DNA of 38,504 nucleotides from Candidatus Accumulibacter contiguus (GTDB lineage Bacteria > Pseudomonadota > Gammaproteobacteria > Burkholderiales > Rhodocyclaceae), in contig NZ_SPMX01000038.1 of the NCBI RefSeq assembly GCF_012940005.1, positions 1-38,504 of the forward strand, read 5' to 3'. The notes under the pieces are model-generated. The model saw only the letters and a program-made list of their open reading frames with translations, made no database searches and was not told the origin of the DNA. The position numbers were made by a program, and so were the translations under genes. This document shows, one piece after another, positions 1-5,018 of the stretch (within the stretch, counting starts at the first letter, position 1; each line of letters opens with the position of its first letter).

Positions 1-178
1 CTCCCGACCAGTCGTCGAATTCGCCCTTCACCAGACGTTCCATGGCGACGATTCGTTCCGGTGCCCAGTTCGTCAGATTGGCGATGGTTCGTGTGCAGAC
101 TTTGCCTCCCTCGCGATAGGACTCGCGAAGCAGGATGGCCGGCCTGGACTTTCGGTTGGGGACGCGGGCGATGTACAT
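1..178 (-). CDS. IS1634-type transposase, N-terminal part (runs off window)
   Basis: The minus strand from an ATG at 178 reads without a stop to the window edge (59 codons). It begins MYIARVPNRKSRP and contains LLRESYREGGKVCTRTIANL, the characteristic N-terminus of IS1634-family transposases, which precedes the DDE nuclease domain. Only the N-terminal segment is visible, so intactness cannot be judged. The AT-rich DNA just upstream (185-225) contrasts with the GC-rich surroundings and would carry the element's promoter and end. The family call rests on recognising the N-terminal motif; the catalytic residues lie outside the window. Confidence 0.75.
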   Translation of the reverse strand, partial: MYIARVPNRKSRPAILLRESYREGGKVCTRTIANLTNWAPERIVAMERLVKGEFDDWSG

Positions 179-184
179 GCCGAC

Positions 185-225
185 AATAATAGCCAATAGC
201 ACATTGTTTGTAAATAGCTATTATT
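185..225. repeat. AT-rich inverted repeat upstream of the transposase
   Basis: AATAATAGC at 185-193 is matched by its exact reverse complement GCTATTATT at 217-225. It sits 7 bases upstream of the transposase start codon in unusually AT-rich sequence. It could be an operator, a promoter hairpin or part of the insertion-sequence end; the sequence does not distinguish these. Confidence 0.5.
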
Positions 226-815
226 ATATTTACATGCCTACATTTTTGCCGATTTTCTGGTTTCTTGCCATGAATCAACGACTTACCTCAAGGGCTCCGG
301 GAAGGTCCGTCAGGGCGCCAAGCTTGAGCGGGCTGAAAAGCGTGGTCATGGTTGCAAGTCTCCTGAGATATGGGGTGACGAATACTAACCTAACCTTGCG
401 CAGTGACTGGATCACTTCTGCTGAGCAGCTGGCATTGATTGAGATCCTCGAAGAAAGCTTTTCGAGGATTGACGATCAACTTGCCTTCCAGGCACATTCA
501 TGCTGACGGTGCGGGCGACCCTGAACGCAAGCGGAAGGAGCAGGCTCAGCCGGCAATCGATAGACTGTACCAGGAACACGCGGACGCGCGTCGCGGGGTC
601 GCCGTCATTCCGGTGCGCGAGACGGAAGCGTGTGCCATCGTCGATGGCGATGCCCTGCGCAGTGTGTTTGGTACCACGCTCAGCGATGAGGCACTCGGTT
701 TGCCTTCGTCGGAGGGAATCGCGGAGGGACTCCCGATCCGAAAGCATTGCTGAAACGCCGCGGGCGCTGATCCAGGCGATGGTCGAGTGTGTACGGCCTG
801 AGCCGATGAAGTCGA
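226..815. other. Stretch with no supported gene
   Basis: Several overlapping open frames exist on both strands here, but none shows a recognisable family, a convincing ribosome binding site or a composition that favours one frame. It probably consists of debris between mobile elements, joining the IS1634-type element to the reverse transcriptase remnant downstream. Confidence 0.5.
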
Positions 816-956
816 TTGAACATCAAATCGGGTGATCTCTCTCAGCACCTGAAGGGCAAGGTGTCCGCACATCTGGTGCGTTACGCGGATGACTTTGTCG
901 TCATGTTGAACGACATCCCGCTGCGGCTCGACTGCCTGAGTCTGCCCGGCAGTTGA
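816..956 (+). pseudogene. Group II intron-type reverse transcriptase remnant
   Basis: The frame ending at the TGA of 954-956 contains LVRYADDFVVML, the palm motif with the catalytic YADD aspartates typical of group II intron maturases. It is preceded by HLKGKV, which resembles the segment before that motif in intact proteins. Only about 46 residues survive: an in-frame stop lies just upstream and another follows soon after, whereas complete proteins exceed 400 residues. No intron domain V hairpin was identified. It is a scar of a degraded retroelement. Confidence 0.6.
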
Positions 957-989
957 ACCGCAGTGCCGGCCCGTCACCCGTGCAGCGGT

Positions 990-1115
990 TCAGCGGCTGA
1001 CCAGGGGCACGATATCCGTCGCACGCTTCTCGGCCTGTTTGGCGGACCTCTTTTCCTTGGGAGTCAACAGCGGCTGCTTCTTCTGTTCCTTGTTGCCCTG
1101 CCTTATCTTGCCCAT
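990..1115 (-). CDS. 41-residue basic conserved small protein
   Basis: A short minus-strand frame encodes 41 residues beginning MGKIRQGNKEQKKQP and ending TDIVPLVSR. It is rich in lysine, arginine and glutamine, with no hydrophobic segment or cysteine. A Shine-Dalgarno GAGGAG lies about 7 bases before the ATG at 1115, which strongly supports translation. The layout (MGK-x-R-x-GNKE start, KKQP, then PKEKR-x-AK, ending near VPL) resembles small proteins I recall as hypothetical in betaproteobacteria. No function is known to me. It is divergent from the FMN reductase at 1372. Confidence 0.6.
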   Translation of the reverse strand: MGKIRQGNKEQKKQPLLTPKEKRSAKQAEKRATDIVPLVSR

Positions 1116-1219
1116 GATCGTACTCCTCGTGAGCACCCGCGAACGCAGGTGTTTATCGAGTATAGGCCGATCAGCGAGCAGAAACCGCCGCTCGGAAAAT
1201 AAGTTGACGGCAGCTGGGA

Positions 1220-1251
1220 GCCCGTCTGTCTGCGGGCGGAACCTCTCCGCC
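1220..1251. other. Two overlapping, mutually exclusive hairpins
   Basis: GCCCG at 1220-1224 can pair with CGGGC at 1233-1237. GGCGGA at 1235-1240 can pair with TCCGCC at 1246-1251. The arms share bases 1235-1237, so only one helix can form at a time. They lie about 120 bases upstream of the FMN reductase start. This could be leader attenuation or chance in GC-rich DNA. Confidence 0.3.
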
Positions 1252-1371
1252 GGTACGATGGTCTGTCTGTGACGCTTGACTGCCCGAGAAGCCGGCTGCG
1301 GCGATCGTCTGCGTCGTTAGGCCTTCCGGGTGCCATCGCTTTCACTTCCTTCAACTTCACTGGAGATCACC

Positions 1372-1926
1372 ATGAGCCAATACCAGATCGCCGTTGTCGT
1401 CGGCAGCCTGCGGCGCGATTCGTACAACTGCCGCCTGGCGACCGCCGTCAGCCGGCTGGCGCCGTCCAACTTCCTGTTTTCCCAGGTACAGATCGGCGAT
1501 TTGCCGCTCTACAACCAGGACGACGATAGCCGTCCCGCCGATTCGGTCAGCCGCTTGAAGTCCGAAATCTCGGCCGCACAGGGCCTGCTGTTCGTCACTC
1601 CCGAATACAACCGTTCGCTCCCAGGGGTGCTCAAGAACGCGATCGACCACGCCTCGCGCCCATATGGCCAGAATGCCTGGGCGGGCAAGCCCGCCGGCGT
1701 CCTCGGCGCGTCCATCGGAGCGATCGGCACGGCGATGGCGCAACAGCATCTACGCAACATCCTCGCCTACCTCGATGTGCCGACGCTTGGCCAACCGGAA
1801 GCCTTCGTTCATGTCAAGGAGGGTTTGTTCGACGAGGCCGGCAACATTGGCGAAGGTAGCCGGCAGTTCCTGCAGAACTGGGTGGACCGCTACGTGGCCT
1901 GGGTGAAGCAGCACAACGACCGATGA
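1372..1926 (+). CDS. NADPH-dependent FMN reductase (chromate/quinone reductase family)
   Basis: This 184-residue flavodoxin-fold protein would use NAD(P)H to reduce FMN-bound substrates such as quinones or chromate in the cytoplasm. Visible features are the N-terminal beta strand and phosphate loop GSLRRDSYN near residues 11-19, and the family signature PEYNRSLPGVLKNAIDH, which binds flavin. The length matches ChrR/YieF-type proteins. The start at 1372 is preceded by GGAG about 7 bases upstream; a longer frame starting at 1330 lacks a comparable site. It is followed 7 bases later by the tail of a broken SDR gene, so the original neighbour is lost. The physiological substrate cannot be read from sequence. 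Confidence 0.88.
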   Translation: MSQYQIAVVVGSLRRDSYNCRLATAVSRLAPSNFLFSQVQIGDLPLYNQDDDSRPADSVSRLKSEISAAQGLLFVTPEYNRSLPGVLKNAIDHASRPYGQNAWAGKPAGVLGASIGAIGTAMAQQHLRNILAYLDVPTLGQPEAFVHVKEGLFDEAGNIGEGSRQFLQNWVDRYVAWVKQHNDR

Positions 1927-1933
1927 GTTGACC

Positions 1934-2249
1934 ATGACCTCCACCGCCAACTATGCGCCATCCGCGGGCGCCCGCCGGGCCGCCATCCGGAGCGGCAGCC
2001 GGCAGGGCGATCCGGTGCGCGCTGCAGAAGCGATCATTCAAGCGGTCGAAGCGCCGCAGGCGCCGCTGCATTTGCTGCTTGGCCGGCCCGCGCGCGAACT
2101 GGCCGCCGGGCTCCAGCGCCGTACCGCGCGCCATTGCCGCAGGCCGGCCCGCGCTCAAACTGGCCACCGTCAAGCTGAAGGAGTTTTCGGCGGAGATGGC
2201 GACGTGGCGAGACCTCTCGCTCGGTGCCGACTTTCCGGACGCGGGTTGA
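1934..2249 (+). pseudogene. C-terminal remnant of a short-chain dehydrogenase/reductase
   Basis: The frame opening at 1934 contains AGARRAAIRSGSRQGDP, then AAEAIIQAVEA and PLHLLLGRPA, the C-terminal part of a common SDR subgroup. The matching end of the protein (LKEFSAEMATWRDLSLGADF) continues in another frame and stops at 2249, so at least one frameshift lies around 2100-2150. The Rossmann NAD(P) motif and the YxxxK active site are absent; they would lie upstream where the FMN reductase now ends. It is a deletion scar. Confidence 0.7.
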
Positions 2250-2619
2250 CCGGAAATGGTTCGCAGGATCGACAGCCGGCATTCGCAAAGCCTTGAACTT
2301 CTCACCGGCAGGCCTGATTCCCAACCGCGCTCAGACGCTCGAGATATTGCGGCTGATGGGCCGGCATCGCCCCCTGCTGATGCTCCTTGGCGATGACGAT
2401 GGCTATGGCACGCGCTGGCTGCTGGACGGCCAGGAGGTGCTGCCAGGAATCGCCAAGTACCTCATGGAAGCGGGTCTGGTTGCCGACGCGGGGGCCACCG
2501 GCTTAGGTGTCCGCAGGCTCGCGCTGACCGAATCCGGGGACCGCGTTCGCAAGGACGGCGAGACCTGGTGGAAGAGCCTCGGTTTCATCGAACGCCTGAA
2601 AATCCGGATCCTCGGTTGA
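2224..2619 (+). CDS. Hypothetical protein, possibly winged-helix-like
   Basis: An open frame of up to 131 residues, not assigned to a named family. The convincing part begins around residue 40 (TLEILRLMGRHRPLLMLLGD), continues through QEVLPGIAKYLMEAGLV and ends RLALTESGDRVRKDGETWW, followed by a basic C-terminus. A helical segment followed by LALTESG is what small winged-helix proteins look like, but this is only a resemblance. The start is unclear: ATG at 2224 lies inside the SDR remnant, and ATG at 2356 is an alternative. It lies 10 bases before the TIR gene and may form an operon with it. Confidence 0.5.
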   Translation: MPTFRTRVDRKWFAGSTAGIRKALNFSPAGLIPNRAQTLEILRLMGRHRPLLMLLGDDDGYGTRWLLDGQEVLPGIAKYLMEAGLVADAGATGLGVRRLALTESGDRVRKDGETWWKSLGFIERLKIRILG

Positions 2620-2629
2620 TGAGGCGCGA

Positions 2630-3004
2630 ATGACCATCATCGAACGAGCCACCGCCCCTGCCTCTGCAGCCGCATCCCCTCCCGGTGTCCCGCCCCTGCT
2701 CGTCCGCCAGGCCAGTGCGCGTGATCCGGTGGTCTTCATCAGCTACTCGCGTAGCGACCGGCAGATCGCCGATCGTCTGGTCGCCGACCTGCAGCACGCC
2801 GGCCACGCCTGCTGGCTCGATACCAGCGACATCCCCGGCGGCGAGATATGGCTGGCGGCGATTGCCGACGGCATCGAGCGCGCCCATGCCTTCGTCAACC
2901 TGGTATCGACGGCCGCCAACGCCAATGCCAACGACTGGGTGCGGTTGGAGTACCTGCAGGCAAGGAAGCGCGGCAAGCCTATCTCTCGCGCTTGCTGTCG
3001 CTGA
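2630..3004 (+). CDS. TIR-domain protein, truncated after the TIR domain
   Basis: This 124-residue product has a low-complexity Ala/Pro N-terminus (about 1-30) and then a TIR domain starting VVFISYSRSDRQIADRLV. The BB-loop region (CWLDTSDIPGGEIW) carries the acidic residues expected near a NADase active site, and the domain continues to EYLQARKRGKP. Bacterial TIR proteins cleave NAD+ or act as signalling adaptors, usually with a further effector or sensor domain. Here the frame ends 8 residues after the TIR core, and 190 bases of unassignable sequence separate it from an IS4 transposase, so the downstream domains look lost. It may be an inactive fragment. Start at 2630 has a GAGG-like site. 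Confidence 0.75.
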   Translation: MTIIERATAPASAAASPPGVPPLLVRQASARDPVVFISYSRSDRQIADRLVADLQHAGHACWLDTSDIPGGEIWLAAIADGIERAHAFVNLVSTAANANANDWVRLEYLQARKRGKPISRACCR

Positions 3005-3194
3005 ACAGGGCAAAGTCGTTCACGTAGAGCAGGGCGCCGCTGCGCGGCGCTTCAGAGAACCAGCAAACCAGAACAGAGAGCAGTGTGCCGGTGGCCAACG
3101 GTTCAAATGATGGGGGAGACACACCACACCCGAAAGCCGAGAAGGCAGTAGCGGACGCCGGGATGGGAGGCAATCCTCGCAACTTAGCACATAG

Positions 3195-4380
3195 TCATGC
3201 GGGTTTGTACGCATGAGAGAGATGAGGTTTGGGTTGAGGGTGATGGGGATTCGTTCGCTCGGGGACGAGCTTCTGCAGGTCCCTGGCGATCTCTTTCATC
3301 AGGGATTTGAGTTGGCGGGTAGTAGCCGCGCCGGCCAGCAGCCAGCGGCCGACTTTTTTCCTTGATCTTTTGGATCGCCTGGGTACGGTTGATTCTGTAG
3401 GGGGAGTCGGGGTCGAGGTGGGCATCAGTCGCGACATAGGCGGCCAGGGCATTGAGGTTGTCGAAGCTCACCTTGGCCCCAAAGTCCTGATTGGCGGCGT
3501 GCCAGGACAGGCCGGAAGTGTGCTCGAGGCCGAGGCGATGCTTGATCCGTTTGAAAGCCTCCTCAATTCTCCAGCGAGAATGATAGAGCCCCGCGAAAGC
3601 GGCAGTGGGAAAAGCGATCGCATCCAATAGAGAGGTCATCACCCCATGAATCCGCCCATTTGGGGTCACTACCCGCACCAGGCGAACCGTCGTGGACGTC
3701 CACGGGCAGTCGTAGTCTTCGGCATCACGCCGGTTCGGTGCGCGCAGCGTGACCACCCGTTCGCTTTCGCCGGAGCGCAGGAATTCACGCACCACCTTGA
3801 ATCCACGGGAAAGATCGCAACGGATACAGAAATGAATGGGGCGCGCGATGAGGACTGCGGGCAGCCACCGGCAGGGAAAGCCCCGGTCAAGGAGCAGCAG
3901 ATCCTGCGGGCACAGCTCATCAATCGATTCGAAGAGCATCTGTCGTTCGTTACCACTGCCCATCTGCAACTTGAAGCTGAGAAACCGTTCGATTCCCGGC
4001 AAGTAAAGGCCGAACGCCACGCCACTGACGATCGAACGTATCCCCTTCTTCCGCATCGTCAGCTGAACCGTCGTGCCATCGCCGGCAACCACCCGCAGCC
4101 CCTGCCATCGAGGAATCGATATCTCCTTCTCCACGTGGGCGATCAACTCCCGGCTCACCTCGTCGAAGACCCGCGAACTGATCTTGTAGCGCGCGGCGGA
4201 AAACGCTTGTGCGCTCACTTTCCGGATCGACTCCGCCCGATTCCGGAGGTCGGCAAAGAACGTATTCCACTACGACTGGACGGCGCCCTGTACACCCGAG
4301 AGCAGAAAGCTCAGGATCACGGGGAAGGTGAGCTTGCGGTCGCGGGTGAAATGCCGGGGATCGAGACGGGATTTCTCCAT
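3195..4380 (-). pseudogene. IS4-family transposase, broken by an amber stop and a frameshift
   Basis: The minus strand from ATG 4380 begins MEKSRLDPRHFTRDRKL, the N-terminus of IS4-type transposases, and meets an in-frame TAG at 4270-4272. The frame then continues with DDE landmarks: DGTTVQL (first Asp), LLLDRGF (second Asp) and YHSRWRIEEAFKRIKHRLGLE (YREK-type region with Glu). Near 3350, at a run of six A residues on the coding strand, the sensible C-terminus (VGRWLLAGAATTRQLK) moves to another frame and ends at 3195. Both lesions must be undone to give a full protein of about 395 residues. No confident terminal inverted repeats were found. Confidence 0.85.
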
Positions 4381-4921: not shown

Positions 4922-5018
4922 CGCGCATTCCTTCAAATGCTCCTGCATTTGGGTGCCGCGCCAGCCGGGTGAAGGAACCCGGTTTTCTCCCCGTCGGGAT
5001 AGGCGCGGCAAAACTTGG

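Follow-up and report, generated by a model that had tools for sequence, protein, structure and literature searches.

What is a reverse transcriptase (RT) motif doing in an open frame of only about 46 codons? The question arises at positions 816-956 of NZ_SPMX01000038.1, a contig of Candidatus Accumulibacter contiguus (GCF_012940005.1). We call the 38,504 nt of this stretch the window, and all coordinates below are window positions. The frame reads ...R*SRLNIKSGDLSQHLKGKVSAHLVRYADDFVVMLNDIPLRLDCLSLPGS*, with stop codons (asterisks) flanking both ends, and has RYADDFVVM between them. Its about 46 residues, its YADD block, and the stops on either side are as an earlier note on this DNA described them. 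The same note took the whole piece for an RT palm fragment, and here the origin holds while the size does not: only 21 of the 46 residues, encoded within 843-906, are RT, and the flanking residues are encoded by other DNA whose frame coincides by chance. Very probably, 843-906 is a nonfunctional remnant, 64 bases long, of the RT gene of a group II intron and one tile in a row of gene scraps beside the remains of fetB, and the open frame around it is a chance fusion over two junctions. Genomes are given G numbers (G000 is the window's own, the others were compared with it), and loci fetched from genomes are given L numbers (L033 from G010, L034 from G001, and L016 from G013).

Ancestry of the YADD-bearing segment

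As an isolated piece of 40 residues, the segment matches TIGR04416 (group_II_RT_mat) with E=0.007 and 15.5 bits (cut-off 300) and Pfam RVT_1 with E=0.039 and 14.1 bits (cut-off 29.6). Both scores lie below the curated cut-offs, so profiles alone are insufficient, and it is DNA identity that settles RT ancestry. Positions 843-906 agree with the intact group II intron RT gene of L033 at 62 of 64 bases, with each of the two RT copies in L034 at 61 of 64, and with two G000 copies at 58 of 64. The similarity ends sharply at 843 and 906. It also extends beyond the short YADD motif, the point on which the earlier note had staked its reading, since at the protein level (tblastn) RT residues 253-273 are identical to the translation of 843-905 at 20 of 21 positions (95%).

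A YADD-like peptide that arose by chance, with no RT ancestry, would be in keeping with the weak profile scores of the isolated piece. Among 500 mononucleotide shuffles of 701-1000, however, of which 210 gave a match of whatever score, the best reached 23.1 bits against 45.1 bits for the real sequence, and a DNA search of 28 genomes of the genus returned the RT tile in one genome at 97% over 64 bases with E=5.5e-24. We therefore give a chance origin next to no credence: the DNA of 843-906 is closer than chance allows to group II intron RT genes, which indicates descent from such a gene.

Because RTs of different kinds have the YADD block in common, and because the intact RT also matches DRT and CRISPR-associated RT profiles, the scrap might instead derive from a retron, a diversity-generating element (DGR), or an Abi/DRT system. 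The nearest DNA relatives argue against this. Among the matches listed for 816-956 (at most eight candidates per genome), they are RTs with group II ribozyme RNA at their locus, and the L033 protein also has a GIIM domain. Moreover, group_II_RT_mat is the sole NCBIfam model matched by the window piece. Rfam searches of the whole window at gathering score and of 1-4000 at E<=5 gave no retron RNA family. An origin in another kind of RT is thus highly improbable, and the group II assignment of the relic stands. A blastn search of 816-956 against a plasmid collection gave nothing at E<=1e-5, and a literature search for Accumulibacter with 'group II intron' found no paper with a title on the subject.

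A row of gene scraps beside fetB

Comparison with intact loci resolves the DNA around the RT relic into the following features, listed from left to right.

309-394: 5' end of an NADH:flavin oxidoreductase gene, then cut off; 98.8% over 86 bases to L014
495..754, plus strand: piece of a DUF4276 / HEC-01B-type gene (candidate phage defence); 88% over 261 bases to L017, 85% to L018
755..818, plus strand: piece of an hsdM (type I methyltransferase) gene, 21 codons; 64 bases, 81% to L017, 84% to L026
818..842, plus strand: putative terminal piece of a transposable element, ~25-29 bases; right limit uncertain within 842-847
843..906, plus strand: relic of a group II intron RT gene, 64 bases; residues 253-273 of 445, palm, YADD block
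907..955, plus strand: remains of fetB (UPF0014 ABC permease); 921-955 is the 3' end with the stop
993..1115, minus strand: conserved small gene of 41 amino acids (MGKIRQGNKEQKKQPLLTPKEK...), neighbour of fetB in relatives

The counterpart of 309-394 in L014 is a long open reading frame with an Oxidored_FMN domain. For the next tile, the intact L017 protein matches 496-762 at 75% identity (tblastn, E=8e-39); this protein hits HEC-01B at E=6.6e-83 and DUF4276 at E=2.2e-6 (28.5 bits, just below the cut-off of 30.2), and a Pfam search of the 495-754 piece by itself gave no match. The peptide of the hsdM tile, TPRALIQAMVECVRPEPMKSI, is identical to HsdM of L017 at 17 of 21 residues (E=6.5e-5), and the product of that hsdM gene carries N6_Mtase and HsdM_N. 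An IS110 transposase, first considered for 755-818 because of a similar peptide, was dropped because the stretch aligns with hsdM. In L017 the HEC-01B and hsdM genes lie side by side, and the stretches that match the window are 618 bases apart. Positions 27-2907 of that locus hold a HEC-01A/HEC-01B-like candidate defence pair followed directly by the hsdM-like gene, and the window retains scraps of the second and third genes only of this trio.

The 818-842 piece resembles five repeat copies (L035-L038 and L056) at 90-93% over 27-30 bases, and in a sixth copy (L055) its 25-base pattern is matched with 3 mismatches. With up to 3 mismatches allowed, the pattern is present in 4 of 61 genomes (G000, G011, G013, and G015), and a reversed control pattern is present in none. 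The repeat copies have a common sharp right end; three copies in G011 and the one in G013 have >1 kb of common sequence to its left, which in G011 extends into an AAA ATPase gene, and the G000 and G015 copies have only ~40-75 bases in common with these. We hold with moderate confidence, the match being short, that 818-842 represents the right end of a transposable element.

To the right of the RT relic, the window from 921 on is 90% identical over 325 bases to L016, where an intact fetB adjoins the small gene. Positions 907-939 match an internal part of fetB (33 bases, 85%, E=7e-4), so 907-920 probably derives from the interior of fetB; at the protein level, the fetB tail by itself gives a weak match (9/11, E=1.7). 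The small gene encodes a lysine-rich protein that tblastn matched in all 13 distinct loci listed, at 54-100% identity and across genus and family, although these loci were fetched for matching this DNA stretch and form no unbiased census. Six of them have an intact fetB, three have the RT scrap, and four have neither in the DNA fetched. Against Pfam, the 41-residue protein matched no family at E<=0.01. The window's own genome has an intact fetB elsewhere (G000:C107:15334-16134, 84% to the query), and so do G010 and G026, in which the copy beside the small gene is likewise destroyed. Farther along the window, the open reading frame at 2630-3004 is apparently cut short; it opens with VFISYSRSDRQIADRLVADLQHAG..., a start that is similar in L014 and L015 and that we take to resemble a TIR domain.

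Each main tile therefore has an identified source, with mosaic boundaries that are sharp against the intact loci. Some caution is due, in that 64 bases are a short match and the assignments of the transposon end and of 907-920 rest on ~14-33 bases.

Missing intron parts and a shared junction

The intact relatives define what a complete element of this kind looks like. The L033 protein has RVT_1 and GIIM (region 340-410), and group II RNA encoded on the RT strand, RF02005 (D1D4-6) together with RF00029 (domain V), accompanies both the L033 gene and the first RT copy in L034. At the second L034 copy the open reading frame is shorter, and domain V is the only RNA part present. As positive controls, domain V was found in L002, L003, L006, L033, and L034 and group-II-D1D4 RNA was found in L001, L003, L033, and L034. 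None of the parts of a functional group II intron (full RT domain, GIIM, domain V, and domain I-IV RNA) was found in the window. The covariance-model scan for domain V that the earlier note had proposed found none at gathering score in the window, nor in 1-4000 with E<=5 allowed. No group-II-D1D4 or other intron RNA came out of the gathering search of the whole window either, and the search of 1-4000 gave no intron RNA, its sole match being a nematode snoRNA model at E=1. The one Rfam family at gathering score anywhere in the window is the int-alpA RNA (RF02996) at 4942-5009 on the minus strand (70.2 bits).

Direct comparisons bear out the earlier observation that no intron structure surrounds the fragment. 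When the 2-kb intron stretch of L033, from D1-D4 to domain V, was compared with the whole window, the best match beyond 843-906 (E=3e-25) had E=0.064. At the protein level, no other RT part rose above the chance level anywhere in the window (next best E=0.35), and neither did the GIIM region of L033. Possible sources for the scrap exist in the window's own genome, where TIGR04416 is matched 16 times at E<=0.001, with many of the matches partial or at contig ends. The source was very probably a group II intron of a kind still intact elsewhere in the genus.

The joined RT scrap was found in 3 of the 28 genomes searched (up to 30 candidates scored in each), and the RT and fetB pieces meet at the same point in all three, G000, G010, and G026. 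A scan for the exact junction pattern gave one record, Ca. Accumulibacter vicinus UBA5574, which is apparently one of the same three (G026), in a collection that may omit entries for the genome of the window or for one very close to it. Since the junction is common to three genomes, the scrap either predates their divergence or was exchanged among them. To the left of it, the G010 alignment continues through the transposon end to 823 (823-842 aligned), so at least one transposon event had already taken place there, and in G026, which lacks window positions 678-842, position 843 follows immediately on the HEC-01B piece.

These alignments bear on the earlier proposal that a retroelement was present before an IS-rich reshuffling. 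The shared junction agrees with an old scrap, or an exchanged one, but the proposed order is weakened by a transposon end that already abuts the RT scrap in two of the three genomes. The simplest history would be one ancestral mosaic followed by further deletions in each lineage, with exchange between lineages possible. Deletions and transposon events would have produced the scraps, and deletions with little or no common sequence at the junctions may have joined them in the order HEC-01B, hsdM, transposon end, RT, and fetB tail. A complete intron may once have stood near this site; no further RT sequence lies in any of the 13 small-gene loci, most of them fetched with ~1.5 kb of flank at either end, and there is thus no sign that the site itself ever held a whole intron.

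Probable decay of the scrap and comparison with known intron fragments

A last alternative is that the chimeric frame of ~46 codons has been recruited to make a small peptide or RNA with a function. In each of the three genomes the frame runs open through the RT tile and the fetB tail, and retention of an intron fragment (FRE652) in Sinorhizobium, perhaps in a cis-regulatory role, has been suggested (PMC5894124). The pattern of divergence points the other way. Compared with G026 and G010, respectively, the window is identical at 57/64 and 56/64 bases of the RT tile, at 43/49 and 43/49 of the fetB tail, and at 122/123 and 113/123 of the small gene, so that across three short sequences divergence in the RT tile is about that of the dead fetB tail and exceeds that of the small gene next to it. 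Against that contrast, the short spacer at 956-992, for which no coding role is known, is conserved too (35/37 and 34/37). Substitutions in the RT tile alter residues, including the Asp of the catalytic motif, which is lost in G010 (YASD for YADD) and retained in the window and G026, and the left part of the frame is unlike in each of the three genomes. A YASD in one of three copies is as expected of decaying DNA, and nothing in these alignments indicates constraint on the RT tile, although three short sequences measure constraint poorly. Co-option therefore has only a slim chance of being right, and it is very unlikely that the RT-fetB frame is now a small expressed peptide or a regulatory RNA built from intron scrap.

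Taken as a decaying relic, the RT tile has little importance alone, but the locus shows cleanly how defence genes, transposons, and a group II intron decay to scraps of 25-260 bases. The RT-fetB junction can serve to mark shared descent, or else exchange, among three genomes of a single genus, and the frame across it is a warning that a short motif-bearing open reading frame can arise as a chance fusion of unrelated gene pieces.

With the group II intron RT/maturases (TIGR04416; RVT_1 plus GIIM), of which L033 is an example, the scrap shares 62 of 64 bases and 20 of 21 residues of the palm YADD block. In contrast to the intact introns of L033 and the first L034 copy, no other RT block, GIIM, D1-D4, or domain V was found with it. 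Truncation is reported for a majority of the group II intron copies in bacteria (PMC4028801). The scrap resembles truncated introns in being a piece of the intron open reading frame without RNA boundaries, and it differs in being only 64 bases long with both ends internal to that frame. A parallel in persistence is FRE652, described as a persisting 652-nt intron fragment of Sinorhizobium (PMC5894124). Like it, the scrap is dead intron DNA retained in several related genomes, but FRE652 retains ribozyme DI-DIII and part of DIV, and the window scrap retains 64 bases of the open reading frame only. The RT scrap is an ordinary, very small case of the truncated and persisting intron fragments already known.
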